A model generated the notes under the pieces. The model did no database searches, was not told where the DNA came from, and worked only from the letters and a program-made list of their open reading frames with translations. A stretch of 23,729 nucleotides of DNA from a virus. Of the stretch, positions 915 to 16,668 are shown piece after piece (positions within the stretch are counted from its first letter, which is position 1; every line of letters starts with the position of its first letter). Location: IMG/VR virus record IMGVR_UViG_3300020428_000085, positions 1 through 23,729 of that record; one strand, given 5' to 3'. A program made the position numbers and the translations under genes.

Positions 915-3900
915 TCAACCATCAATTTCTTTTCAAAATCTTCTTCTTCGTAATCTTTTTCTAATCCTGATTCACCAGCAGTTATTGCATTTACAAATTG
1001 ACTAATTAAAAATTTTGTATTATTATAAACATCTTTTTTTACCTTTTTTCCTAAAGTAGATAAAGTTTCATCAACAGCAGTAAATACATCAGGGTCATCG
1101 GGCATAGGTCGATCATCTCCTCCAATATCTTCAGCTTTATCTTTGACATATTCTAAAGTAATTGCTCCTTTTTTACTTAATCCTTTATACTCTGTAGGCT
1201 TCCTCCATATTATTTCTGTAAATTTTCTTAATAAACTTTTATGAGCTGGTTTTGTAGAACCACTTAAAATATCTAACATCATATGATAATTTCCACCTAA
1301 TGCACTTTTTTTAGCTGCCTCAAGAAACATTTTATAATCCATAAGTACATTTATACTATCTCCGCCTAAACCAAAAGCTTCATATATTCTCGCTAATCTA
1401 TTTATAATTAATCTTTTGTGATTTAAAGGTCCTGCCCATATATCTACAAATAAACCAGCTTGATTTGCTACTTCTGTTACACTTTTATTTGCAGCATTAG
1501 CTCCTAAAAAACTAATATCTTGAAGTGCTGTAAGACCTTTAGCAATTGATCTATAAGTTTCTAAAAATTGTTTATTAAATAATTGTTCTATTGCTTCTTT
1601 ATTTTGATCTAAAAAAGTATTTAATCTAACTCCATTATGTAAACCATTTACTTTAGTTTGATCTAAAAAGTCATAAACAAATACTCTTCTGATATCTTGT
1701 AATACACCTCGTCCTTCTACTGTTTTATTTAAATTAGAAACTAATTTAGTTACATTATCACCTCTCATTTTAGTTAAAAGATGTTTAACTATTTCAGTTG
1801 GATTTTGTTTATCGAGAACTTTTACACTTAAACCTGGTAGAGCTTCAGAAATTTCCTTTGAAATTTTTAATTGATTGTTTACAGCATCATCCATTACTTT
1901 TAATGCATTTTTAGAACTACTAGCAAATTTTGACCATATTTCTTTTCCTAAAATTGTTTCATAAATTCTACCATACTGTGCAACAAATTCTGAGTGTTTC
2001 ATTACATCTTTACCTGATCCTGTCTCTTTATAAACCTGTTTAAAATATTTTTCATATAAAGCATTATAAATTTTATTTTTATCAGCTACTGTTACAGGCT
2101 TTAATTTATTATCTAATATTTGTTTTAATCTAGCCGCATTAGGAAGTGCATCTTCACCTTCAGTAAAATATTTAATTACTTTGTCACCTTCTCCTATTAT
2201 ACCCGCTTGTCGTGATACTTTAATACCACTACCATATCCAAATTGTTGAGATAACTCACGTAAAAAAGAACTTTGATACATACTTAATAAATGATCATAT
2301 TGATTATGTGCTATTAATAATTTACTATCTTTAGGTAATGAATTTTGAATAGCATCATCAAAAGGTTTTTTTAATTTTCTTAAAGCATTAGCCATTACAC
2401 CAGTCATTTCACCTGATTCAGCAGCCATGATAAGTTTTCTCCAAGCTAATACTTGGCTATAACTCATATTTTCAATATTTGTAACTCCTCCTTTTAATAT
2501 TTTTGTAAACTCAACAACATCTTCTCGACTACTATATTTAGATAAAGTTTCATAAAATTCTTTTACTTTTTGATTAGCTAAATATTTTTTTACATATGCT
2601 GGCGAACTTGTTTTAGTAGGTTTTTTCATTTTTTGTACTACTTTTTCGCTATATTCTCTAATAATGTTATTTAAAACTTTTTTAGTTTCACCTATATTTA
2701 AATTAAATTTTACATTTGAATTTGAAGCTATTCTTTTTACACTTTGTTCTGCATCAAATAAGATAGTTTTTATACCTTGATTTATTTTTGCAAAACTTAT
2801 TCCTAATTGATCTATTTCATTTACAACTGGATTATCAGTTCTAAATTTAATTAATTTTCCTTCTGCAGATTTTACTATTTCTTTAGCAGCATCTGTTTCT
2901 GCTTTTCTCATTTTAATAAGTTGATTTGATATATTATTTATAATATCATCTTTTTGTGATCCTGTTATATTTACATTATCTAATCCCGAAACTATTTTAA
3001 TTATGTCATTTTCAACTTCTTTTGTTTTTATAATTTTATTAGCTCTACCTCTTTCTATTTCGCTTAAAACTTTTTTTGATATTGATTTAGGTGCCTCTAT
3101 TTCAGCAAGTGGAAAAGCTTTATTTACACTTGCTACTAAATAATCGTCAGCTACTTTTTCTGGAATTCCATGATCTTGTAAAATTTTTTTAGCTTCATCT
3201 AAATTTTTAAGTAAACCTTCATCTAATTTTCCACCTGATTTAATTACATTTTCTATTGATTTAGAACTAATTTTATCTTGAGCTGCAGTAAGAACAGCTT
3301 TTTTTATTGCTTGACCAGTTAATAAAAAAGCAGGAGTTGCAACTAAATCTATTCCAGCCATGATTGCAGCTTGAGTAAAAGCCATTTTATAATAGTCGTC
3401 ATCACTAACACCTTCTCCTAATCCATAGATTTCTCTTCCTACTGCATATTTAGTTACTTCAGCAGTAAAAGTAGCTCCAGCGGAACCTACTGATGTTCCT
3501 ACAACTGGAGTTACGAAACTTCCTCCAATAGCACCAGTGATTGCTGATCCAACTGTAAAAATATCTCCAGCGATAGCTGATAAATCTCCTGTAGTAGGAT
3601 ATAAAGTAGGAGCATTTGTAGTAGTCCATTTATTAGTTCCACCTAATTCTTTTGGAACTCGATAAGTTAAAACATTATATTCTCCTTTTCCTCCATCAAA
3701 AATATTTTTATTTAATTTTTGATATTTAAATTTAATCTTATCTTTATGTAGTTCTACTAGCTCTGGATCTAATTTTTTATCTTCTAATAAATATTCTTTA
3801 ATATATAAATTTTTAGCATCTCTTAATGTTAATGTTTCATTATTAATTCCTAAACTTAAAGCAAATCTTACTTCTTTAGGAAGTTCATTTTCTTTTTTTG

Positions 3901-5765: not shown

Positions 5766-6847
5766 TAAACCTCCTTAAAGTCTACATCTAGTTTAGAGTA
5801 ATCTACCATTAAATATCCAAATTGATTAGGAGTAGCCGCTTGTGGTACTTGATGAGCCATTACACCTTGATATGTTCTATCATCACCTAGATATTTAAAG
5901 TTATAAATTTTAATTCCTTTAGGAGATTTACCAACTAATTTAATATCTTTCTTTAATCTTATATCAGAAGGTGGCATAAATTGTGCTCCAGCTAATGCTG
6001 CACCTGTTACTTGACCAAAGATACTCGGACCACCTACTGGTGTACCTACTGATCCTGATCTTTCTTCTCCATAACTTCTTATAGGAGCACCTGATAATGC
6101 TCCAACCATTTGTCTTATTTGTCCAGCAGGATATTCTCTTGCTTCTATAAAGTCACGATATCCTTCTGCTAATTTAGCTTGTTCTATACCACGTGCTTGT
6201 GCACCAAAAGCTTGAAGACCTTGTGCACCTGATTGTAAAGCTCCTATCTGAGTAGTTGCAGCACCTAGTTGTTGACCTAGTCCTGCCATTTGTGTTTGTC
6301 TATCTTGTGCAAATCTACTTGCACCTGATTCAAAACCTGCTTGTCTTAATCTTGCTGTTGTATCAGCTACTGAATCTAAATATCTTTCTTGTCCTAAAAC
6401 ATTTTGAATACCTTGTCTTGATCCTCCAAAAGCTCCTGAACCTATAGCTTGAGCATCCATAGCTTTTTGAGATTGACCGTAAGCATCACCTAAATCTGTT
6501 AATGCTCCTGAAATAACTTGATTCTCATAAGGATTAGCATAAGCTTGAGCTGTCGCTGTATCATAAGTTTGAGCACCAGCATTTGCTATTTGTTGACCTA
6601 TACCAGCTAATTGTCCAGCTTGAGGAATTACTTGTTGAGAATATACATTTTCTGCTGCAATTTCTTGAGGATCAAGTGAAGCTATACGTTGACCTTGATA
6701 TGCAGTATAAGGTTGACTAAAAACATTCTCTGCTGTTCTTAAAGTTCGTTCTTGAATTTCTTTAAAGTATTCAGGTATATCATAGCTAGTCTGTGACGTG
6801 CTAGGTGCCTGTACTACTGTTGTGCTTGGTTTGAATATACTACCCAT
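5765..6847 (-). CDS. Internal virion/tail protein with short S74-like C-terminus
   Basis: A 360-residue protein. Residues about 25-260 are rich in Ala, Gln and Gly and look like long helices (AGIGQQIANAGAQTYDTATA, GLGQQLGAATTQIGALQSGA). The C-terminus from S294-D295 (SDIRLKKDIK, then GIKIYNFKYLGDDRTYQGVMA) matches the start of the S74 intramolecular chaperone of endosialidase-type tail proteins. Only about 66 residues follow the Ser, which is shorter than the complete self-cleaving domain, so autoproteolysis is doubtful. Marine short-tailed phages often carry such a protein beside the ejection proteins. The start overlaps the acetyltransferase gene by 8 bases; AGGAGG lies unusually far upstream (about 15 bases). 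The module identification is fairly firm, the role in the particle is inferred. Confidence 0.62.
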   Translation of the reverse strand: MGSIFKPSTTVVQAPSTSQTSYDIPEYFKEIQERTLRTAENVFSQPYTAYQGQRIASLDPQEIAAENVYSQQVIPQAGQLAGIGQQIANAGAQTYDTATAQAYANPYENQVISGALTDLGDAYGQSQKAMDAQAIGSGAFGGSRQGIQNVLGQERYLDSVADTTARLRQAGFESGASRFAQDRQTQMAGLGQQLGAATTQIGALQSGAQGLQAFGAQARGIEQAKLAEGYRDFIEAREYPAGQIRQMVGALSGAPIRSYGEERSGSVGTPVGGPSIFGQVTGAALAGAQFMPPSDIRLKKDIKLVGKSPKGIKIYNFKYLGDDRTYQGVMAHQVPQAATPNQFGYLMVDYSKLDVDFKEV

Positions 6848-7295
6848 TGACGATAAAAGTTCCTCCTATAACTTTAAAACCTAATTTAATAAAGGCATTG
6901 TTTTTTCTTTCAACATCTTTACCTTGGAATATTTCACATATAGCAGTAACTTTATTAGCTAATGCATATTCCTTAAATACTATCATTAAAGAACGAAAAA
7001 TGCTAAATCTTCGATGTTGTGGACTTACATGTAACCATAAAGTTCTCATAAACTTTTTATCACTATACCACGTTTCATCTACTGTAGCAGCTAATGTTCC
7101 TACAATAATATTTTCATATTCTACTACTATAACAAAACTATTCTTAATGTAAAATACTATATTTTCTAATGCTTTCTTATTATTAGTATTTCCAAAGTTA
7201 AAAGGAGCCTCTATTAACCATGTTTTTAATAATTCTCTTATTCGAACAGCATCAGAAATCTGTGCTTTTCGTATTTTATATTTATCTTTTTCCAT
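6840..7295 (-). CDS. GNAT-family N-acetyltransferase
   Basis: A 151-residue protein with the order of elements of a GNAT acetyltransferase. It opens with a strand and helix (YKIRKAQISDAVRIRELL), has a central strand pair (FVIVVEYENIIVGTLAA), then the acetyl-CoA-binding motif A region (TLWLHVSPQHRRFSIFRSLM), and a C-terminal part with FIKLGFKVIGGTFIV. The pyrophosphate-binding loop is degenerate: QHRRFS stands where Q/RxxGxG/A is usual, so cofactor binding needs testing. The gene overlaps the end of the nozzle gene by 14 bases and the next gene by 8, placing it firmly in the virion operon. The acetyl acceptor is unknown; a phage structural protein, a host protein or a small molecule are all possible. 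Confidence 0.75.
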   Translation of the reverse strand: MEKDKYKIRKAQISDAVRIRELLKTWLIEAPFNFGNTNNKKALENIVFYIKNSFVIVVEYENIIVGTLAATVDETWYSDKKFMRTLWLHVSPQHRRFSIFRSLMIVFKEYALANKVTAICEIFQGKDVERKNNAFIKLGFKVIGGTFIVNG

Positions 7296-9126
7296 CAGCT
7301 CTTAAATTCACTCTTAAAGTTCCAAATCTCCAATTGTCTCCTATCGCTGTATTTTCTATTTTTATATTAGATTGTCTACCACGGATTCGTGTATTAATAA
7401 ACCCTGTTGTGTTACTTACTGTCACAGTTTCTCCAACGGTGGTATTACCATAAGGATAATCTCTTGTAGTTAAAGTAATTAAAGCATTACCTGTTTGATT
7501 TTGAAAATCAGGTATAATTTTGTTTATAAACATAAATTCTTCTCCGTCAGCTAAATCTCCATCACCTGATTGAATATATGCTGTTAAAGCAGAGCCATCA
7601 GCATCTACGCCATCTTCCATTCTATAAATTATACTTCTACCTGCTGTTAAACCATTTATTTGTGAAATAGTATTAGAAGTAGAATTAGCTGTATATGAAG
7701 TAGCTAAAGGATTTAATTCAACTCCATTATCTTGATATGTACTTCTATTCATAGTTCCAAAACACCAAGAGTTTTCTAAATAATTATAAATAACATATCT
7801 ATCATTTTGATCCGAGGAACTAGAACAATAATACCATATTACTTCAGAGAAATTAGAGTTTTGTGCAGCATAAACCTGAGCATATTGAACTTTATTTATA
7901 TTATCAAAAACATGATTTAATACAGGACAAGGTATTTCTTGAACAGCACCAGCATATCTAAAGAATTGTCCATCAGACATCCAATAAGCTATGTCATCTA
8001 TTACTATTGCAGAATTAAGACCTACAGCTCCACAATCATTACCTAATTGTCTAAAACCAAAAATAAAAGGAGGACCAATAAATGACATTGATTGCATTGT
8101 AGTATCAGTCCATACTAGAATAGTTCCTTTAGCAGGACGTGCACATCTAATTTCACTTCCTCCTGCTATTCTTTGTGATCCAGCTGAATTAGTTACATTA
8201 GGAGTCCATTGATTATATTCTTCTTGATCAGACCAACGAATAAACATTTTATCTTGAGTTGAAGTATTACCAATAGAAGTTTCTGTACCCATACATACGA
8301 CATGTCTAGTTTCAGTAGATACCATTGATAAAGTTGATTTAGTTGGAGCATTAGCAATTATTGTAGCTCTATTACCTGTCATTCCACCTGATAAATCCCA
8401 TTCATAAGTTCCACCTTCTTTTTGAGTAATAATTAAATCTTCTCCCCAATTATTTATAGACCATAATCTTGCATCAATAGTTACATTTGAAGTTGTTCGA
8501 GGAGTTCCCCATGTACTTGCACTCCAAGCACCTGAACCCCAGCCATATCCAAAAGTTTGAAGACTAGGACCTACATTTAATTGATAAGTTACTGTACAAT
8601 TACCAGTAGGACCAATTGTTGAAGTAGCAGTAGCATTACTTTGAATTACATAAGCATCTACATTAGTAACTGATAAGATTTCATATTCAGCATCTAAAGT
8701 TGCAGCTGCAATTCCTCCAACTGAAGTGCTGGTACTACTTAAAGTTACAAAATCGCCAGTTGTAGCTCCATGACCTGTATCTGAAATAGTGACATTAGCA
8801 CTCGTGTTAGTGGTTGTAAAAGCATTAACTAAATTGGCTGTAGCTCTAATAGGAGTAATATCTTGACTATCTCCCGAAGCATAAGTATAGACTTTTCTAT
8901 CTGTTCCTAAAGCTTCATATCTAGCTCCTGTTAAAGAAAACCATTGCTCTAAAGCTCTTCCTACTCCTACATAATAAGCTGTACTAAATTTATTCCAGCC
9001 TCCTAATTTTTGAGGAAGTCCTTTACGAAATCTGATTTTATCTCCGTCAATCCATCTACCTTCTGCTCCGGTTTCTGTATTTTCGGTATCTAATCCAGGT
9101 TGAAAATTTAACTTTGTTAATGGCAT
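7282..9126 (-). CDS. Tail nozzle / DNA stabilisation protein, P22 gp10-like
   Basis: A 614-residue beta-rich protein. The N-terminus (LNFQPGLDTENTETGAEGRW, then DGDKIRFRKGLPQKLGGW) and the central part (FIRWSDQEEYNQWTP, then GGSEIRCARPAKGTILVWTD, then WYYCSSSSDQNDRYVIYNY) are characteristic of the tail-tube nozzle proteins of short-tailed phages related to P22 gp10. These proteins form a hexameric tube below the adaptor ring, keep packaged DNA from leaking, and carry the fibres. The start at 9126 lacks any Shine-Dalgarno sequence (TTTTGTTATATACTTATTATT precedes the ATG), unlike most genes here. It follows the enzyme cassette after a 101-base spacer holding a hairpin, and its end overlaps the acetyltransferase gene by 14 bases. 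Confidence 0.85.
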   Translation of the reverse strand: MPLTKLNFQPGLDTENTETGAEGRWIDGDKIRFRKGLPQKLGGWNKFSTAYYVGVGRALEQWFSLTGARYEALGTDRKVYTYASGDSQDITPIRATANLVNAFTTTNTSANVTISDTGHGATTGDFVTLSSTSTSVGGIAAATLDAEYEILSVTNVDAYVIQSNATATSTIGPTGNCTVTYQLNVGPSLQTFGYGWGSGAWSASTWGTPRTTSNVTIDARLWSINNWGEDLIITQKEGGTYEWDLSGGMTGNRATIIANAPTKSTLSMVSTETRHVVCMGTETSIGNTSTQDKMFIRWSDQEEYNQWTPNVTNSAGSQRIAGGSEIRCARPAKGTILVWTDTTMQSMSFIGPPFIFGFRQLGNDCGAVGLNSAIVIDDIAYWMSDGQFFRYAGAVQEIPCPVLNHVFDNINKVQYAQVYAAQNSNFSEVIWYYCSSSSDQNDRYVIYNYLENSWCFGTMNRSTYQDNGVELNPLATSYTANSTSNTISQINGLTAGRSIIYRMEDGVDADGSALTAYIQSGDGDLADGEEFMFINKIIPDFQNQTGNALITLTTRDYPYGNTTVGETVTVSNTTGFINTRIRGRQSNIKIENTAIGDNWRFGTLRVNLRADGKR

Positions 9127-9227: not shown

Positions 9228-9863
9228 TTACTTTTTAGGTAAAGTAAAGCCTTTATAAAAGGCTGGAAGTCCTATAAATGGACGTTTATCAAACTCATTT
9301 TCTTTAGCATTTTTTGATCCTGCTTTATTATAATGTAAAAATACTTGTGCACAATCTTTACCAGTAAATTCTTCTCGCCAATGTTCAAGATCACAACCAG
9401 AATAAATTAACATGTCACCTGGTTCTAGTTTTACTTTAATACCAGCTTGACCTTCTTTACCTGTTGGGTCTAAATATATAGGCCAATCACCACCACCTAG
9501 ATTTAAAGTAGTAGATATTTCACACGAATATCTATCTTTGTGTCTAGCTAAAACATCTCCTTTTTTATAAATTCTTGCATAAGAATAAGTTTCAGATAAT
9601 TTCATACCTGTATGTTTTTCCATAACTGGTTTAACTTTTTGTAATAAAGTTTCCATAACTAAATCACTATAATGGGAATAAGTATTAGGAACTTGTTGAT
9701 CATTCCATACTCCCCAATACTCTGTAAATGGTGATATGTATCTTTGATCAAATAAAAGTCTGGCAACCTTTCTTTTATTAAGAAAATAAGCAAAACAAAA
9801 GTCTGCCATTTCTCTATTAAGTGCTTTTTTTAAAATACTGTATTTATTTTTTTTGAACGACAT
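9228..9863 (-). CDS. 2OG-Fe(II) oxygenase, prolyl-hydroxylase-like
   Basis: A 211-residue member of the 2-oxoglutarate/iron(II) dioxygenase superfamily. The core is YARIYKKGDVLARHKDRYSC with H108-x-D110 as the first two iron ligands. Strands ISTTLNLGG and WPIYLDP follow, then KLEPGDMLIYSG and the distal ligand H161 (LEHWREEF), ending with AQVFLHYN. Such enzymes couple oxidation of 2-oxoglutarate to hydroxylation of a substrate, often Pro, Lys or Asn in proteins. The usual distal Arg/Lys that binds 2-oxoglutarate is not obvious here; R163 and K169 are candidates. AAAGGAG stands 7 bases before the ATG, and the start overlaps the preceding oxygenase gene by 20 bases. It is the last gene of the four-enzyme cassette. 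Family assignment is firm, substrate unknown. Confidence 0.85.
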   Translation of the reverse strand: MSFKKNKYSILKKALNREMADFCFAYFLNKRKVARLLFDQRYISPFTEYWGVWNDQQVPNTYSHYSDLVMETLLQKVKPVMEKHTGMKLSETYSYARIYKKGDVLARHKDRYSCEISTTLNLGGGDWPIYLDPTGKEGQAGIKVKLEPGDMLIYSGCDLEHWREEFTGKDCAQVFLHYNKAGSKNAKENEFDKRPFIGLPAFYKGFTLPKK

Positions 9864-10590
9864 TTAATACTCCTTTCGGTATTGCTTGACAGTTAAAATG
9901 TATAAATCTAAATGGTTCATACCCCATATCTATTACATATTGATGTGGCATATAAGACGGAAAAAATATCATTCGTCCAGGTTTTACTTCATAATTAATT
10001 TGTGAACTTGCATATGTAACTTTAGATTTATCTTTTTCTGGTAAAAGATTCATTATATTACCAGGTCTAGGATCTTCAAATAAAGGTCTTGAAGTTTTAT
10101 TACTAGCTTTTAAAAAATAAAAACCTGAGATATGACCATTCCAATGAGTATGTAAGGTATGATGTCCTCCACCATTCTTAGCAAATTCTTGTACCCATAA
10201 TTCAGTAATAAATACTTGATAATTAGTTAAATCAAAACCCATTTCTAATAATAAATTATTTGCTGTTGCACCAATATAATTAGTTAATTGATTAAAATTA
10301 GGATCTCCAATCAAACTTGTTGAATGAAAAACATTCCCCATATCTCCTTTATCACCAAATTCTTTATTTCTTTTATCTATATCTTTTTTTAAATTATCTT
10401 TAGAAATTTTAATATAAGGATCAGATGCTTTATTTAAATCTTCTACAAATGAATCATCATCAGCAAACCATATAGGACATTTAAATAAATCTTCTTTTGC
10501 TAATTGTATAGGAAATGATTTAACACTTTCTTTTTTATTTCTTTTTTTCTTTTTCATTTTTATCACTTTGTCATTCCATTGTACCAACAT
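9844..10590 (-). CDS. 2OG-Fe(II) oxygenase, TIGR02466/PF13759-like
   Basis: A 248-residue putative 2OG-Fe(II) dioxygenase. It starts FPIQLAKEDLFKCPIWFAD at residue 26. The metal site is H147-T-H149-W-N followed by GHISGFYFL, where HxH replaces the more usual HxD, as in this family. It continues with PLFEDPRPGN, then GRMIFFPSYMPH with distal H216, and R228 (EPFRFIHFN) for the 2-oxoglutarate carboxylate. The start is uncertain. ATG at 10590 gives 28 bases of overlap with the halogenase gene and a weak GGAA upstream. ATG at 10557 gives a natural MKKKKRNKKES N-terminus just after the halogenase stop but without a clear ribosome binding site. It is the third gene of the cassette. Substrate unknown; related genes are common in marine phages. 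Confidence 0.83.
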   Translation of the reverse strand: MLVQWNDKVIKMKKKKRNKKESVKSFPIQLAKEDLFKCPIWFADDDSFVEDLNKASDPYIKISKDNLKKDIDKRNKEFGDKGDMGNVFHSTSLIGDPNFNQLTNYIGATANNLLLEMGFDLTNYQVFITELWVQEFAKNGGGHHTLHTHWNGHISGFYFLKASNKTSRPLFEDPRPGNIMNLLPEKDKSKVTYASSQINYEVKPGRMIFFPSYMPHQYVIDMGYEPFRFIHFNCQAIPKGVLNVVQKK

Positions 10591-11711
10591 TTAAAGTTCC
10601 ATTTATGCCATTGACCATATATGTCAGGTGCATTAGTCACGTTACTGTCGAGCAATTCAATCATTGGAGACAATTTAGCCTCATTTAGAATTTTATTAAA
10701 TAATGGATCCTTAATTTTAAGTTTTTTAGCAGCTTTCCAGAAAGGCGTATTATATTTAGAACCATAGCTATAATGCCACATAATAAAGTTTTGTATTTGA
10801 TTTACATAGTTATGAAATTGATTAGTAATAACTTCAGGAGTTATTTTTTTCTCTATGATCCAATCCCATGTACAACGTGCCCAATGTAAATAGGATGCAA
10901 TAGCGGTGGATTCTAAAGGTTCAAGAAAAAATAAACGATTACCACTTAAAATAATTCTATTATCTATTATAGGTTGCTTAGCTACATAATTTTTAAATTT
11001 AAAATTATCTACTTTTTCATTTAAATAAATACCTTGTTCTGCCAACTTAAATAACTTTTTGAAATTAGTGGCTGCTTCGTTAATAGGAGTAATTTTATCA
11101 TTATAAAGATAACCATAAGAAGTAGTATTAGTAGTGTTGGGAATAACAAAAGTCCATCCATCAGGAGTAGCTACAGCACGTGTCCAGTTAATATCACAAT
11201 CTTTAGATTTTCCTTCTCCTAAAAGAACAGCATTTAAAGGATTGTTGAGCATTGTATAGTTCTCCCAATTAGTTATATGTCTACCACGACAATCAAAAAT
11301 ATAGTCTGAATCAATTTGTTCATAGTTATTAATAGATTTTTTTATCACCTTAAAATATTTAGATTTTAAAATAGTGTCTTGTAATTTAGCAGGATTGTAT
11401 TGAAGACCAACTGAATGTAAGCTAAAAGGATGAAAGACTTTATTATTTTTCTTTCCCCAATTTTCATACAAAATTCCAAATTTAGGAGTAGCATTAATAG
11501 GATTATTATACCAATTGATTCCAAGAGCTGCCCATAAAAGTTGAGGTGGTTCCAAGAGAGTGGCTTGTCCTACCTTTTCAGGAGGAATATTAGGATCATA
11601 AAGTAGTTCAACAGAAATATTTGCTCTATTACGAGTATAATAAGCATAATGCAAAGCAGTTAAACAGCCAGCATTTCCTCTTCCTAAAATAGTAATTTTT
11701 ATCTTTTTCAT
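10563..11711 (-). CDS. Flavin-dependent tryptophan-halogenase-like protein
   Basis: A 382-residue flavoprotein of the tryptophan halogenase family. Visible are the FAD dinucleotide-binding loop GRGNAG (residues 10-15), KVGQATLLEPP (46-56, family VGEAT motif), and K77 in NATPKFGILYENW at the place of the PrnA catalytic Lys79. WTFVIP (186-191) is a variant of the family WxWxIP, and FFLEPLESTAIASY has E267 at the place of PrnA Glu346. Both residues thought to direct hypohalous acid are therefore present. It is clearly shorter than PrnA or RebH (over 500 residues), so the substrate-binding part is reduced. Marine phages do carry such genes; VirX1 from a cyanophage was shown to iodinate varied substrates. 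The start overlaps the upstream oxygenase stop by 4 bases. Non-halogenating monooxygenase activity remains possible. Confidence 0.82.
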   Translation of the reverse strand: MKKIKITILGRGNAGCLTALHYAYYTRNRANISVELLYDPNIPPEKVGQATLLEPPQLLWAALGINWYNNPINATPKFGILYENWGKKNNKVFHPFSLHSVGLQYNPAKLQDTILKSKYFKVIKKSINNYEQIDSDYIFDCRGRHITNWENYTMLNNPLNAVLLGEGKSKDCDINWTRAVATPDGWTFVIPNTTNTTSYGYLYNDKITPINEAATNFKKLFKLAEQGIYLNEKVDNFKFKNYVAKQPIIDNRIILSGNRLFFLEPLESTAIASYLHWARCTWDWIIEKKITPEVITNQFHNYVNQIQNFIMWHYSYGSKYNTPFWKAAKKLKIKDPLFNKILNEAKLSPMIELLDSNVTNAPDIYGQWHKWNFKCWYNGMTK

Positions 11712-12334
11712 TTAAAAGGCAATCCTAAATTCCATATTACTAAACTATGTCTAGATCCTTTTGTAACTGGACATACTCTATGCCAAATAAATCCAGGAAA
11801 GACCACTAAAGATCCTTTAGGTAATATTTCTTTACATTTTTTAATATTACGTTTTTTATCAGGGTCTAAATTTCTAAAATCAAATTCTAATTCTCCACCT
11901 TTATAATCTTTAGGATCTGATAAAGTAACTGTAACTGATAGTTTTCTTATTTTACCATGCGATGGAGTATTAGGTTGATTATAAGGTTGATCCCAACCAT
12001 CACAATGCCAATCATAATATTGACCTTTATTATATTTAGTAAATTGACAAGCTTCTGAATAATCCCATTGATAATTCCAACCTGCATTAGCATTTGCTTG
12101 ATGAATATAAGGTTGTATTTCTTTATAAATCCAACGATCAGACATCCAGACTATATTTGAATCTCTTTTTTTTTTTAAATCTTTAATTTGTTTTTGATTT
12201 AATTTTTTAGAATCACCATAACCACCAGTAACTGCCATTTGATCTGATAATTGTTTTCCATAACGTACAATGTCATCACATACACGATGTGGAATTACTG
12301 ATTGAAAATAATAATAATGATTTGCTAAATTCAT
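11708..12334 (-). CDS. 2OG-Fe(II) oxygenase, PKHD-type
   Basis: A 208-residue dioxygenase of the 2-oxoglutarate/iron(II) superfamily, closest in shape to PKHD/PiuC-type hydroxylases. Iron ligands are H110-C-D112 (YYDWHCDGW) and H185 (FPGFIWHRV); R195 (KGSRHSLVIW) should bind 2-oxoglutarate. Between them lie KLSVTVTLSDP and YKGGELEFDF. It is the first gene of the four-enzyme cassette and overlaps the halogenase by 4 bases. The start codon lies at the base of a nested inverted repeat (12333-12381), and only a poor AGAAAG precedes it, so initiation is probably controlled. A run of eleven A residues on the coding strand (12166-12176) encodes part of LKKKRD and could allow slippage. Family is firm; the substrate is not known. 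Confidence 0.87.
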   Translation of the reverse strand: MNLANHYYYFQSVIPHRVCDDIVRYGKQLSDQMAVTGGYGDSKKLNQKQIKDLKKKRDSNIVWMSDRWIYKEIQPYIHQANANAGWNYQWDYSEACQFTKYNKGQYYDWHCDGWDQPYNQPNTPSHGKIRKLSVTVTLSDPKDYKGGELEFDFRNLDPDKKRNIKKCKEILPKGSLVVFPGFIWHRVCPVTKGSRHSLVIWNLGLPFK

Positions 12335-12384: not shown

Positions 12385-14166
12385 TTAAGAAACTGTTAAT
12401 GTTCCAGTTACAGTAAAAGTAGCAATTTTTTCTCCACCTGGGGCTGTTGAAGTTGCGTTACATCCAGGCGATACTGATAAACTAGAACAAGCTGGAAATC
12501 TTACAATAACTACACCACCACCTCCAGTTGATATACCTGACGCACCTCCACCTGTTCCTGGTGCACCAGAATTAGCTGGTGTATTTCCAGATCCTGTACC
12601 TCCACCACCACCTGGTGCAGCTGGTCCTTGACCTCCAGTATTTCCATGCGCTGCTCCACCACTAGCTCTTGTTACTGCCGCTCCTGTTATTGAACTAGCA
12701 ATTCCCGCACCTGCTGGTCCATATCCTTCACCTGGTGTAGAATTGCCTCCTGCGCCACCGGCACCTCCACCACCACCTCCGCCAAAAGTACCTGGCCATG
12801 TTCCACCATTACCACCTGGGTTACCTTGAGGTTGAGGACTTATAGGAGGCACATTTCCAGAACCTCCAGTATTACCACCGCCGCCAGCTCCACCTCCTGA
12901 ACCTCCATCAGCACCATTAGGTAATGAACTGCCAGGGAATTGAGATCCTCCGGATCCACCTCCTCCATTGGATGTTATTGTATGAAAAGTTGAATCTCCT
13001 CCATTAGCTCCAAGAGGAAATCCAGTAGCACCTCCACCGCCAATTGTAATTGTATAATCTCCTTCTTCTAATGCTGGAAAACCAGATACTCCTGATCCTA
13101 ATGGAGAGGCAGAATAAGAACCAGTATTTGTTCCAGCTGATTCTCTATATCCTCCAGCTCCACCACCACCAAAAGTACCGCTCCAGTTACCATTACTACC
13201 ACCGCCACCACCGCCGGCAATAACTAAATAATCCATTGCATAAGTTGCTAAAAATTTTGGCCATGTTCCATCTTGCTTGGATTGAAATTGTGATTGCATC
13301 GACCACATACCACTTGCTTTGTTTAATTCTTTAAATACTACAATTCCTGAACCACCTGCTCCACTTGTTTTACCTGGATAAGAAGCAGGAAAACCTCCAG
13401 CTCCTCCACCACCGCCACCAGTATTAGCAGTTCCAGATGTTGCAGTTGCTGTTCCACTTGGAGCTCCAGCTCCACCGCCTCCTGATCCACCAGCTCCACT
13501 ACTTCCGCCTGGTCCTTCACCAGCTCCACCGCCACCACCAGCGTATGTTGTACAATTTAATGGACTTGGCGAACCTGCTCCGCCAGCTGCTCCGGCGTTA
13601 CATGAACCATTAGCTCCAACACCTCCAGCGCCACCACCTCCACCACCACCTGCTGTTCCAGGTGCTGGTATTTTTGATCTTCCACCGTCATTTCCTTCTG
13701 GAATTGTAAATCCACCTTCGTTACCAGATCCACCAGGAGAGTTATTTCTTTGACCACCTCCACCACCAGATCCACCGTCTCCAGCAGCTACTCCACATGG
13801 ACCTCCAGCTCGACCACCACCTGTTGATATATATTCTGTACTTCCTACTGTAATTTTTGTATTTTCTCCTTTATTACCAAAGGTTCCAGCAGGAGATGAA
13901 GATACTGCTGCACCTCCAGCTCCAATAGTTACTGGAACATTTCCGGGAACACTAATACATGTAAAATTTCTAAAACCACCTGCACCGCCGCCACCACCAG
14001 CATATGCGCCACCACCAGATCCTCCACCTGCAACTACTGTTGCATCGACAAGTCTAGTTCCTGTTTGAAAAGATGAACATCCTGTGGCTGTTACAGTTGT
14101 AACTTTACACTTCCCAAAAGAAGTTTCATTTACTTTACCGATTATACCGCCATTATTATTAGGCAT
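12385..14166 (-). CDS. Glycine-rich tail fibre/adhesin 2
   Basis: A 593-residue fibre-like protein. A short N-terminal peptide (NNNGGIIGKVN) resembles that of the other glycine-rich fibre and may be the particle attachment point. Two tandem modules follow. Each starts with a hydrophobic strand running into poly-glycine (DATVVAGGGSGGG at about 41; MDYLVIAGGGGGG at about 311), then AGGFR or AGGYR, a TIGAGG-type strand, and a closing GIVVFK or GVVIVR. The linker KASGMWSMQSQF precedes module two. Glycine-rich repeats of this kind form polyglycine-II bundles in phage adhesins such as S16 gp38, so receptor binding is the likely job. The C-terminus ends FTVTGTLTVS, as in the paralogue. AAGGAG stands 10 bases before the start. 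The enzyme cassette follows directly. Confidence 0.8.
   Translation of the reverse strand: MPNNNGGIIGKVNETSFGKCKVTTVTATGCSSFQTGTRLVDATVVAGGGSGGGAYAGGGGGAGGFRNFTCISVPGNVPVTIGAGGAAVSSSPAGTFGNKGENTKITVGSTEYISTGGGRAGGPCGVAAGDGGSGGGGGQRNNSPGGSGNEGGFTIPEGNDGGRSKIPAPGTAGGGGGGGAGGVGANGSCNAGAAGGAGSPSPLNCTTYAGGGGGAGEGPGGSSGAGGSGGGGAGAPSGTATATSGTANTGGGGGGAGGFPASYPGKTSGAGGSGIVVFKELNKASGMWSMQSQFQSKQDGTWPKFLATYAMDYLVIAGGGGGGSNGNWSGTFGGGGAGGYRESAGTNTGSYSASPLGSGVSGFPALEEGDYTITIGGGGATGFPLGANGGDSTFHTITSNGGGGSGGSQFPGSSLPNGADGGSGGGAGGGGNTGGSGNVPPISPQPQGNPGGNGGTWPGTFGGGGGGGAGGAGGNSTPGEGYGPAGAGIASSITGAAVTRASGGAAHGNTGGQGPAAPGGGGGTGSGNTPANSGAPGTGGGASGISTGGGGVVIVRFPACSSLSVSPGCNATSTAPGGEKIATFTVTGTLTVS
12394..12417. 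repeat. 24-bp direct repeat, copy at 3' end of fibre 2
   Basis: The 24 bases here are identical to those at 14716-14739. Both copies encode the FTVTGTLT ending of a glycine-rich fibre gene. Identity at the DNA level, including third codon positions, points to recent duplication or recombination rather than only protein-level conservation. Confidence 0.75.
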
Positions 14167-14179
14167 GCTTTAAGTCTCC

Positions 14180-14647
14180 TTATGCGGATACCCAAGCTAA
14201 TGTTGAAGCATCCCAATTAAAATTATTTACTGGATCTGAAAAATCCGTTGCAGTCCATCTTAGATTAGGTTCATCCCAACTTATCGCTTTATCTGTTGTA
14301 TCAGTTGGAAAAGTAACTGGCGCTTGCCAATCATCATTTCCGTCTAATGCCCAAGATGCGTAAGGTTGAGGTGATAAAAATTTATCTTTTGCAACATTAT
14401 AAGTATAACTTTTACCTGCATATTGTTTTCTGAAATTATTATTGTAAGAAGTTTGTTTCCACTCTCCACCTTTAAAGAAATTTTTACACCATGTTTCACC
14501 ATCAACATGCATGTCATTATTTCCTAAAGGACCTGCTGCTGTAGAAATATCATTTCCTGCAACAATGACTCTTTCAACAACCCATAAAGTATCCGTTGTA
14601 TGGCCGGTTGGATCTGTTTTTTGTCTTATTTCTGCAAAATGTGCCAT
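14180..14647 (-). CDS. Small fibre-associated structural protein (marine-phage family)
   Basis: A 155-residue protein of a type widespread in cyanophages and other marine phages, beginning MAHFAEI and containing KQTSYNNNFRKQYAGKSYTY, PQPYASWALDG, WQAPVTFPTD and a W-rich end (WDEPNLRWTATDF, FNWDASTLAWVSA). No enzymatic motif is visible. Members usually lie among tail-fibre genes, and this one separates the two glycine-rich fibres. It may be a fibre cap, chaperone or collar piece, but no function is established from the sequence. AAGGAGA stands 6 bases before the start. The 62-base spacer upstream of it (14648-14709) contains long A-runs on the coding strand and nothing else recognisable. Confidence 0.7.
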   Translation of the reverse strand: MAHFAEIRQKTDPTGHTTDTLWVVERVIVAGNDISTAAGPLGNNDMHVDGETWCKNFFKGGEWKQTSYNNNFRKQYAGKSYTYNVAKDKFLSPQPYASWALDGNDDWQAPVTFPTDTTDKAISWDEPNLRWTATDFSDPVNNFNWDASTLAWVSA

Positions 14648-14709
14648 AATTTTCTCCTTAATTAAAGTCTAATTTATATTTTTTTTTAAGTTTGTACATA
14701 TTTTTTTTA

Positions 14710-16668
14710 TTATATTGTTAATGTTCCAGTTACAGTAAATGTCATTACAGTACACCCTCCTGCAGGGGCTGGTAATGTTGTTTTAGTATTAGTTCCTGGG
14801 GCTACTGTATAACTAGGTCCCGCAGGTCCTGGAACTCTTAAAATAACTACTCCTGAACCTCCTGTTGCACTACATGAAGCACCATTACTTCCACCAGCTC
14901 CACCTCCAGTATTAGCAGTTCCATTAGCTCCAACACCAGGTCCTGATGGGGCTCCAATAGATCCTGCTCCACCGCCGCCTGCTCCAGCAGTTCCTCCAGT
15001 TCCTCCATTATAACTAGATCCTCCACCGCCACCTGCATAAGTAACTGGACTTCCTGAAATTGAATTAGCTTTTCCTGCTCCACCAGCTCCACCAGCAGTT
15101 GGGGTTCCTGCACTACCGGCAGCACATGCTCCACCACCTCCGCCAGATCCATAATTTGGTGCACCTGTTGAATTACTTGGAGACCCATTAGTTCCTTGAA
15201 CAGGAGATACTGGTGAACTATTTGCGGGAACATTTCCAGTTCCACCTGGAGCATCATTTCCACTCCATGCTCCAGCTCCACCACCTGAACCTCCTGGTTG
15301 ACCATTATCACTACCACTACCATTACTATTACAAGCGGTTCCTCCACCGCCTCCACCACCAAAAGAAGTAATATATCCTATCCAAGAATCAGTACCTGAT
15401 TTTCCAATTGATCCTACACTTGAACAAACAGTAGCCATACCACCTGCTCCACCAGCACCAATTACAACTTGATTAGTTCCTGGATTTAAAAATAATTTTG
15501 TTCCACCTGGAAATGAACTTCTATAACCACCAGCTCCACCACCGCCTCCGCCAGAAGCAACGTTTCCACAAATTCCTCCACCACCGCCTCCGCCAGCTAC
15601 TACTAAATAATCTAATTCATTTGAACCTAGCGATGTAAAAGTTACATTACTTGATGCTTTAAATTCTGCTATAAATGTTCCTGTACCACCATCAGGTGAA
15701 TTAACAGGTGCACAATTACTATCTGTTGACATATATGAACTTGATCTTAAAATTACTACTCCAGACCCACCTACAAGACCATCATAATTAGCTGAACCTG
15801 AGGGGTTAGCTGGACTCGGACCTGCGCCTTGAGAATATGCACCATTTCCAGTATTATCTTGTGCATCTATTCTTCTTATTAAAGCTCCAGCAGGATTACG
15901 TGAAGCAAAACCACCGCCTGCTGCATAAGTTAAAGCTGTTCCTGTAATAGCATTTGGTGCACCCGCACCACCGCCTAAAGGAGTTTTAACTCCAGCACCA
16001 GGAGAAGTTCCTCCTGCTCCAAGTGCTCCACCACCTGCACCTGAACCTGTCATACATCCTGTTCCTCCTGCTCCACCAGCATTTCCTTCTGATTTACAAT
16101 AACCTCCAGCATTTCCTGTTCCTGCGCATCCACCTGATCCACCACCTCCTCCACCTGATCCACCAGGTTGAGCATTATGTCCAGGTGCACCTTGAGTAGA
16201 AGGTTGTGCACCTCCTCCTCCACCTGAAGCTGAAATTTTTGTAGTTCCTTCTACACCTGCGGGATTATAAACTGAAGCTCCACCAGCACCAGCTGTAGTA
16301 CCAGGTCCTGGTGATGAACCAGCAGAAGCTTGACCTCCTTTAGTTCCACCTGCTCCTACCGTAACTCCATAAGTTCCCCACCTTTGACTGATTGCAGTAC
16401 CTCTTAAAGGAGAAGGTCCGTAACCAGAAGCACGATAGCCTCCAGCTCCACCTCCTCCACCACCTTGAATATGATAATAATTTCCACCTGATCCACCGCC
16501 ACCACCGACTACTAAATAATCGGATGTTGCAAAATTATAAACCCAATCTGAATTTTTTACATAAGAATATACAGTATTTGTTCGCCACATACCAGAAGCT
16601 TTTCCACAAGCTGCACATCCATTAGTTACTGTGTTAGGGGGTCCAATTATTCCGCCATTGCCAGCCAT
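14710..16668 (-). CDS. Glycine-rich tail fibre/adhesin 1
   Basis: A 652-residue fibre-like protein and paralogue of the following glycine-rich fibre. The N-terminus AGNGGIIGPPNTVTNG is followed by the linker KASGMWRTNTVYSYVK at about residue 23. Two modules then appear. The first begins SDYLVVGGGGGSGG at about 49 and closes with GVVILR near 310; the second begins LDYLVVAGGGGGGG near 352 and closes with GVVILR near 615. Each includes AGGYR and a TVGAGG or VIGAGG strand. The protein ends TFTVTGTLTI. Several cysteines lie in the first half (CAAC, GGCAGTG, GTGCMTGSG). Polyglycine-II type adhesin architecture, as in S16 gp38, is the likely fold. AGGAGG stands 8 bases before the start. Receptor recognition is inferred, not shown. 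Confidence 0.8.
   Translation of the reverse strand: MAGNGGIIGPPNTVTNGCAACGKASGMWRTNTVYSYVKNSDWVYNFATSDYLVVGGGGGSGGNYYHIQGGGGGGAGGYRASGYGPSPLRGTAISQRWGTYGVTVGAGGTKGGQASAGSSPGPGTTAGAGGASVYNPAGVEGTTKISASGGGGGAQPSTQGAPGHNAQPGGSGGGGGGSGGCAGTGNAGGYCKSEGNAGGAGGTGCMTGSGAGGGALGAGGTSPGAGVKTPLGGGAGAPNAITGTALTYAAGGGFASRNPAGALIRRIDAQDNTGNGAYSQGAGPSPANPSGSANYDGLVGGSGVVILRSSSYMSTDSNCAPVNSPDGGTGTFIAEFKASSNVTFTSLGSNELDYLVVAGGGGGGGICGNVASGGGGGGAGGYRSSFPGGTKLFLNPGTNQVVIGAGGAGGMATVCSSVGSIGKSGTDSWIGYITSFGGGGGGGTACNSNGSGSDNGQPGGSGGGAGAWSGNDAPGGTGNVPANSSPVSPVQGTNGSPSNSTGAPNYGSGGGGGACAAGSAGTPTAGGAGGAGKANSISGSPVTYAGGGGGSSYNGGTGGTAGAGGGGAGSIGAPSGPGVGANGTANTGGGAGGSNGASCSATGGSGVVILRVPGPAGPSYTVAPGTNTKTTLPAPAGGCTVMTFTVTGTLTI
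14716..14739. repeat. 24-bp direct repeat, copy at 3' end of fibre 1
   Basis: Second copy of the 24-base sequence found at 12394-12417. It lies at the same relative place, in the last codons of the paralogous fibre gene, just before the poorly conserved final residue(s). Confidence 0.75.

Follow-up and report, generated by a model that had tools for sequence, protein, structure and literature searches.

What does a phage do with a flavin-dependent halogenase? The question is raised by a gene in IMG/VR record IMGVR_UViG_3300020428_000085, of which we analyzed positions 1 to 23,729; this whole stretch is referred to as the window. The gene encodes a protein of only 382 amino acids (aa). Its family, catalytic residues, clade, fold, and gene cassette, as well as the exchange of genes in the slot that it occupies, were established here. 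From these data we infer, with a probability of roughly 60%, that this member of a compact clade is active as a halogenase and is one interchangeable component of an oxidative tailoring cassette of phages; the activity, the halide, and a substrate common to the cassette are all part of that inference. The aspect that looks new is this setting, namely, the exchangeable position within a 2-oxoglutarate (2OG)/Fe(II)-type oxygenase cassette of marine phages, beside glycine-rich, fiber-like genes.

Family and predicted fold of the halogenase

The gene in question is the following.

10563 to 11711, minus strand: compact flavin-dependent halogenase (382 aa; PF04820, phrog_2928, AlphaFold2 model, fold matches)

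The original prediction had placed a 382-aa protein at these coordinates, and both position and length hold: the open reading frame (ORF) comprises 382 codons from ATG to TGA on the minus strand, and stop codons abound on the plus strand there. The product matched PF04820 with 108.2 bits (cutoff, 21; E = 6e-31) and phrog_2928 with an E value of 3.9e-68. Its best sequence matches in the PDB were Trp-6-halogenases (E = 2.2e-17), and VirX1 was a distant PDB match (E = 1e-7; 34.6 bits). Comparison with seven relatives revealed purifying selection on the gene (omega, 0.16 to 0.35). Because of these matches and this selection, the gene is genuine and the family match is not due to chance.

An AlphaFold2 model built from 43 aligned sequences had a mean pLDDT of 89.3. 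Over residues 1 to 382 it matched AbeH (Z, 37.9; root mean square deviation, 3.0; 363 residues aligned), and further fold matches were SttH (Z, 37.7), BrvH and Xcc4156 (Z, 36), PrnA (2ard; Z, 33.3), MibH (Z, 32.0), and VirX1 (Z, 28.5; starting at residue 2). The predicted fold, overlaid on PrnA and VirX1, matches over its full length and thus agrees with the proposal of a viral flavin halogenase-type enzyme.

Catalytic residues are kept, whereas other motif positions are altered

Of 160 halogenase sequences gathered, 9 with fewer than 330 aa were set aside, which left 140 compact and 11 long sequences. The window protein was present twice among the compact ones; without it and without identical rows, 127 unique compact relatives remained. 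This sample is biased toward the window, since the loci were fetched by the window sequence. The motifs of the window halogenase are located as follows.

11667 to 11684, minus strand: GRGNAG, FAD dinucleotide-binding loop (residues 10 to 15)
11559 to 11573, minus strand: VGQAT (residues 47 to 51), with Q49 at the position of a Glu in the long enzymes
11481 to 11483, minus strand: K77, counterpart of PrnA K79 by profile alignment, present in all 127 unique compact relatives
11139 to 11156, minus strand: WTFVIP (residues 186 to 191), with F188 in place of the second Trp of WxWxIP
10902 to 10928, minus strand: FLEPLESTA (residues 262 to 270), with E267, which equals PrnA E346, and A270

Profile alignment to PrnA placed K77 on K79, E267 on E346, and W186/F188 on W272/W274. 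The Lys/Glu pair and the FAD loop named in the original prediction are hence borne out, and WTFVIP (within GWTFVIP, residues 185 to 191) and VGQAT had been read correctly. FLEPLE with E267 conforms to the motif FX[DE]PX[EFL] given for halogenases in passages of PMC8407142, and GRGNAG conforms to the GxGxxG loop. The change of motifs is wider than first noted: the published Fx.Px.SxG motif ends in Gly or a charged residue in active halogenases but in Ala (A270) here. The WxWxIP of classical tryptophan halogenases of the PrnA/RebH type reads WTFVIP. According to passages of the same paper, WxWxIP or its variants are missing from some active halogenases (PMC8407142).

These features are shared by the relatives. 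Among the 127 unique compact sequences, K77, G79, and W186 were present in all, F188 and N258 in 126, E267 in 124, Q49 in 119, W368 and W376 in 118, and R142 in 117, and position 270 was Ala or Ser in 126. The 11 long sequences had E49 (10), W188 (11), L258 (9), and G270 (8). The one exception at F188 is a Trp in Campylobacter phage CP21, and the exceptions at E267 are Gln residues in S-SSM7, P-TIM40, and CP21. Since the Lys is invariant and the Glu nearly invariant across the compact clade, the window protein is likely to halogenate. In Thal, bromination is lost in every variant of Lys79, and formation of the hydroperoxyflavin persists in the Lys79Thr variant that was examined, as stated in parts of PMC7948982.

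Two side observations concern these residues. The loci L070, L155, L156, and L157 (S-SSM7, P-TIM40, Campylobacter phage CP21, and Sf-CH11) carry Gln for the catalytic Glu, and their proteins are perhaps inactive or mechanistically different. A "tryptophan halogenase family protein" encoded on a Streptomyces plasmid (L153) has Gln at the position of the catalytic Lys.

The altered positions call for another reading, which we consider unlikely: a flavin monooxygenase evolved from a halogenase, in which F188, Q49, and A270 would make the flavin site more open and the enzyme would hydroxylate an aromatic side chain within a protein, comparable to the action of QhpG on a Trp of QhpC. In its favor, three clade-specific changes, including the Ala or Ser that replaces the Gly of Fx.Px.SxG in nearly all compact relatives, fall in active-site motifs, and WxWxIP, which is said in passages of PMC8407142 to prevent monooxygenation, is altered. 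The slot of the halogenase also alternates with hydroxylase-like genes (see below), and there was a weak match to the NCBIfam family of QhpG-type tryptophan hydroxylases (NF049967; E = 0.0035), although its 16.3 bits place the protein outside that family (cutoff, 240). However, both catalytic residues are kept, the Lys that Thal needs for halogenation (PMC7948982, in part) would be unexpected in a hydroxylase, and halogenases rank first by both fold and sequence.

Reduced size of the substrate module

A reduced substrate module had also been claimed, and the alignment gaps against a PrnA-like plasmid protein encoded beside prnB (L148) support it: relative to this reference, the window halogenase lacks 50 aa after residue 96, 16 aa after residue 131, 8 aa after residue 146, and 25 plus 52 aa (~77) at the C terminus. 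Judged by eye against the Trp1 to Trp4 motifs listed for tryptophan halogenases in passages of PMC8269204, the full Trp4 substrate motif is absent, with only W-N-F-K-C-W-Y-N-G aligned and neither the Tyr-Tyr nor the Glu; Trp1 reads ATLLEP and not AT[IVF][PS], and HPF (Trp2) is retained. Because most of the free-tryptophan-binding Trp4 motif is lost, free tryptophan is a less likely substrate, which does not imply a broad one. A classical free-tryptophan halogenase, as relatives are annotated, that makes halotryptophan or an antibiotic precursor is accordingly very improbable. The Trp-6-halogenases among the best PDB matches, the retained HPF, and the resemblance of the C-terminal segment to Trp4 would fit such an enzyme, and an antibiotic role has been proposed in print for cyanophage prnA (PMC2984593, in part), but the changed Trp1, the absence of the Tyr-Tyr and Glu of Trp4, and the fact that no pathway genes were seen argue against it.

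A compact viral clade distinct from VirX1

In an IQ-TREE phylogeny of 46 taxa, 35 of 35 compact proteins were separated from the 11 long ones, including VirX1, with a UFBoot support of 100, and a FastTree phylogeny of all 151 rows gave the same split a support of 0.996. The kinship with VirX1 that had been suggested was therefore not recovered: the compact proteins form a clade of their own, with VirX1 placed among the long ones, and this clustering rules out the window protein as a VirX1-type viral halogenase. The small size and the altered motifs are traits of the whole compact viral clade rather than of this one gene. Chain 6QGM corresponds to CPUG_00131 of cyanophage Syn10 (E = 0 over all 530 residues). 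In the Syn10 record (L065), this VirX1 gene lies at 6890 to 8482 and is annotated "hypothetical," and CPUG_00132 (5377 to 6900), annotated "tryptophan halogenase," is a second long halogenase and a VirX1 paralogue.

Searching the phage collection by tblastn with the window halogenase retrieved 51 records, and a profile scan of viral contigs identified at least 530 encoding stretches. A scan of genome contigs, which required an exact match to one of two peptide patterns, gave 94 pattern matches, of which 3 were relatives, each from a metagenome bin. The compact clade is thus found almost only in viral contigs, a statement that is weak for bacteria given the exact-pattern scan. It is highly improbable that the protein is an inactive degenerate or structural remnant: its small size and lost insert would suit one, but the strong conservation of the catalytic residues, the omega values given above, and this wide spread are at odds with it.

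The compactness of a phage halogenase is not new, because prnA genes from phages, 1104, 1116, and 1167 bp in length, were tabulated in 2010 by Sullivan et al. (PMC3037559, in part) and the records of S-ShM2, S-SSM7, and S-SSM5 carry compact genes labeled tryptophan halogenase. The passages found in published work on viral and phage halogenases and on pelagiphages nowhere describe the compact clade or the cassette slot.

The halogenase occupies an exchangeable slot in an oxygenase cassette

The genes surrounding the halogenase are the following.

11708 to 12334, minus strand: 2OG-Fe(II) oxygenase (PF13640; E = 1.1e-16) adjoining the halogenase upstream, with HCD 110...H185...R195
9844 to 10590, minus strand: 2OG-Fe(II) oxygenase (PF13759/TIGR02466; E = 5.4e-14) adjoining the halogenase downstream
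9228 to 9863, minus strand: third oxygenase-like gene, labeled "ferrochelatase" (PHROGs phrog_2954, GenBank), with HxD...H
12385 to 14166, minus strand: glycine-rich (fiber-like) protein upstream of the cassette (PF21722; E = 6.1e-22; phrog_2295)
14180 to 14647, minus strand: 155-aa Trp-rich protein of the fiber region (phrog_7759), with six conserved C-terminal Trp residues
14710 to 16668, minus strand: second glycine-rich (fiber-like) protein (PF21722; E = 9.6e-20)

An ATGA overlap joins the end of the upstream oxygenase gene to the start of the halogenase gene, and the true start of the downstream oxygenase gene is probably near 10557. Close relatives show that this position is exchangeable. 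The pelagiphages HTVC033P and HTVC023P have the same three oxygenase genes beside fiber-region genes, and no halogenase was seen in the stretches of these two phages that were examined. In HTVC033P, the three oxygenase genes are 80 to 82% identical in nucleotide (nt) sequence to those of the window, and 6 bp stand in place of the halogenase; the remaining window proteins that match this phage are 43 to 54% identical, and its coat protein does not match that of the window. Locus L163 has an empty slot between flanks of 89.8% (2.8 kb) and 84.3% (0.8 kb) nt identity. In L194 (93.0% nt identity over 4.4 kb) a phrog_274 gene fills the slot (914 to 1294), and L001, whose halogenase is 94% identical, contains a phrog_274 gene (7468 to 8004) plus the halogenase. 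The halogenase thus sits in a slot that is empty or filled by an oxygenase in close relatives. We surveyed the 80 best-matching loci of the upstream oxygenase, of which 63 were usable, having at least 900 bp downstream: 51 led directly to the second oxygenase and 12 had another gene first, with HxD...H...R present in 9 of these 12.

The phrog_274 family is annotated in PHROGs as "DNA endonuclease V." All 18 sequences contained H108, D110, and H159, at least 90% contained R170, the profile matched prolyl 3-hydroxylase 1 (P3H1; E = 8.7e-4), and the modeled fold matched PHD2 (Z, 15.1) and the Pseudomonas prolyl-4-hydroxylase (P4H; Z, 14.0). By residues, profile, and fold, the protein is a prolyl-hydroxylase-like 2OG oxygenase, and the PHROG label is therefore doubtful.

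As to the other cassette genes, the upstream oxygenase was considered as a nonheme-iron halogenase (WelO5 match; E = 0.054) and rejected, as its HCD is retained; HCD is the hydroxylase form of the nonheme-iron motif. In the family of the third gene, H108, D110, and H161 were invariant in 25 sequences, and its product had no Pfam and no PDB match. The label "ferrochelatase" of this phrog_2954 family, also used in GenBank pelagiphage records, looks wrong given the HxD...H oxygenase motif.

The window has a G+C content of 26 to 35% outside the glycine-rich genes and of 42 to 47% at 12385 to 16668, where the glycine-rich, fiber-like genes lie. Its capsid protein is 61% identical to the counterparts in Roseobacter phages CRP-901/902 and Pelagibacter phage HTVC023P, and the host is likely SAR11-like. 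A GNAT-type acetyltransferase is encoded at 6840 to 7295 (minus strand) in the late gene region.

Halogenases of two clades recur in the same kind of cassette

For the compact halogenase, 136 of 147 sequences were counted, after removal of the second copy of the window, 2 repeat contigs, 7 named-phage loci, and 1 halogenase-free locus. A recognized oxygenase was encoded within 4 kb in 73 loci, at least two in 52, and at least three in 44, and an oxygenase was the immediate neighbor in 48. Oxygenases accounted for 229 of 1,100 ORFs within 4 kb and for 13 of 347 beyond, in contigs that are related and hence not independent.

Among the 80 loci surveyed for the upstream oxygenase, L233 has a 498-aa VirX1-type halogenase gene (2290 to 3786) shortly upstream of the same oxygenase cassette, with a glycine-rich gene on its other side; its product is 44% identical to VirX1 (418 aligned positions) and 27% identical to the window protein in the conserved part. 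A scan for relatives of this protein yielded 69 loci, L233 included. Among them, an oxygenase was encoded within 4 kb in 60 and within 250 bp in 52, and at least three were encoded in 41; oxygenase density was 0.65/kb within 2.5 kb and 0.23/kb farther away. The family of the upstream oxygenase lay directly upstream of the halogenase in 20 of the 69 loci and directly downstream in 20, and in L250 and L256 the long halogenase directly follows the upstream oxygenase, the position that the compact enzyme has in the window. The locus of VirX1 itself has three oxygenases of the second (PF13759-type) family downstream. Taken together, the counts for compact and VirX1-type loci indicate that one kind of cassette repeatedly houses halogenases of either clade. 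For the uncultured Mediterranean phage AP013490, passages of PMC5628290 mention two Fe(II) oxygenases along with two tryptophan halogenases.

Proposed function

The compact halogenase would take FADH2 from a host flavin reductase, form the C4a-hydroperoxyflavin with O2, and then generate HOX with a halide. HOX would be passed down a tunnel to K77/E267, where an electron-rich aromatic ring would be halogenated. As originally noted, no flavin reductase was recognized in the window, based on the ORF list and on family scans of part of the ORFs. PF01613, the one reductase family sought, was absent from 16 of 16 phage or virus records, Syn10 included, and the control search was positive in 13 of 14 cell genomes. 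Absence from the window is therefore uninformative, and reduced flavin would come from the host or from another type of reductase.

The substrate cap is trimmed, with loss of the PrnA insert 104 to 153, of the C terminus beyond about 460, and of the Trp4 Glu; with such a cap, the enzyme probably acts on something other than free tryptophan, perhaps a large substrate. The halogenase would work alongside several prolyl-hydroxylase-like 2OG/Fe(II) oxygenases, beside fiber-like genes, and a substrate common to both enzyme types is suggested by the slot exchange. Candidates are a virion or fiber protein or another target late in infection. Known members of these folds act on proteins as well as small molecules (PHD2, P4H with EF-Tu, and MibH). 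The location of the halogenase gene among oxygenase genes beside the fiber-like genes is a hint that chemical modification of phage proteins by the phage itself may occur, and a virion or fiber protein is the most interesting candidate. A more specific proposal is tentative, and we would sooner doubt it than accept it: halogenases of two clades and prolyl-hydroxylase-like oxygenases would alternate in a fiber-adjacent slot and halogenate or hydroxylate the phage's own tail-fiber or virion proteins. If true, this would be, to our knowledge, the first post-translational halogenation of a virion. The Trp-rich neighbor (phrog_7759) was considered as the target and is unsupported, with no halogenase-specific site in 64 sequences.

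A number of points weigh against a tailoring cassette with a halogenase as its member. (i) The link is not universal, as 63 of the 136 compact loci lack a recognized oxygenase nearby. (ii) The T4-type major capsid gene, gp23, lies within 4 kb in 15 of the 136 loci, none of which also has an oxygenase, and the halogenase is directly downstream of gp23 in 13 (e.g., L132; also L067). (iii) Oxygenases are common in marine phages, and adjacency may just reflect a crowded accessory site. (iv) The six C-terminal Trp residues of the Trp-rich protein are kept in 11 of 11 sequences with a halogenase and in 50 to 53 of 53 without. (v) The reaction could be changed by A270/S270, Q49, and F188, all of which are positions of active-site motifs.

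Points (ii) and (iii) also bear on a different role, which we regard as rather unlikely: the same halogenase would act on a small molecule of host or infection metabolism, such as an indole, a phenol, a signal, or a defense compound, and the oxygenases would be independent accessory genes of a hot spot. The T4-like phages that carry the gene after gp23 without recognized oxygenases are consistent with it, as is the broad acceptance of small aromatics by VirX1 (PMC8407142, in part), and passages of PMC3037559 describe oxygenases as frequent in marine phages and interpret them as 2OG/nitrogen modulators. Yet we noticed no genes for biosynthesis or transport in the window, and two halogenase clades return repeatedly to the same oxygenase cassette, in line with the tailoring cassette that we favor.

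Comparison with known halogenases

The nearest counterparts are the proteins of cyanophages S-ShM2/S-RIM14, of Sf-CH8, and of marine virus AG-345-E15, which belong to the same compact clade (359 to 390 aa; 41 to 45% identity) and share F188 and K77. Their gene neighbors differ: the Sf-CH8 gene is located behind the major head protein and the S-ShM2 gene behind talC. No functional characterization of these proteins was found in the published work searched. The compact clade comprises the smallest halogenases of this fold type encountered here, and its three altered active-site positions are natural experiments on the roles of the motifs.

PrnA, RebH, Thal, and AbeH have the fold, the FAD loop, and the Lys/Glu pair in common with the window halogenase but are about 130 to 170 aa longer, with an intact WxWxIP and a full Trp4 motif. 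The peptide halogenase MibH (541 aa) shares the fold and is a precedent for a halogenated Trp inside a peptide; MibH and halogenases of ribosomally synthesized and post-translationally modified peptides act on dedicated precursor peptides. Enzymes of the BrvH/Xcc4156/MHal type, of which BrvH and Xcc4156 share the fold, are bacterial, with PDB chains of 511 to 523 aa, and BrvH and MHal likewise lack the full free-Trp motif (PMC8269204, in part).

VirX1 (6QGM, CPUG_00131 of cyanophage Syn10) is the sole viral halogenase with a solved structure encountered here, and the table in the part of the review consulted gives no native pathway for it (PMC8407142). Like the window protein, it is a viral flavin halogenase of the common fold encoded near PF13759-type oxygenases; it differs in its length (530 aa), its motifs (WVWNIP, VGEST, and FIEPLESTG), and its membership of the long clade. 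The recurrence of both clades in one fiber-adjacent oxygenase cassette offers a concrete, testable idea of the purpose of phage halogenases: if true, the native role of viral halogenases, VirX1 and the compact enzymes alike, would be the tailoring of virion proteins.

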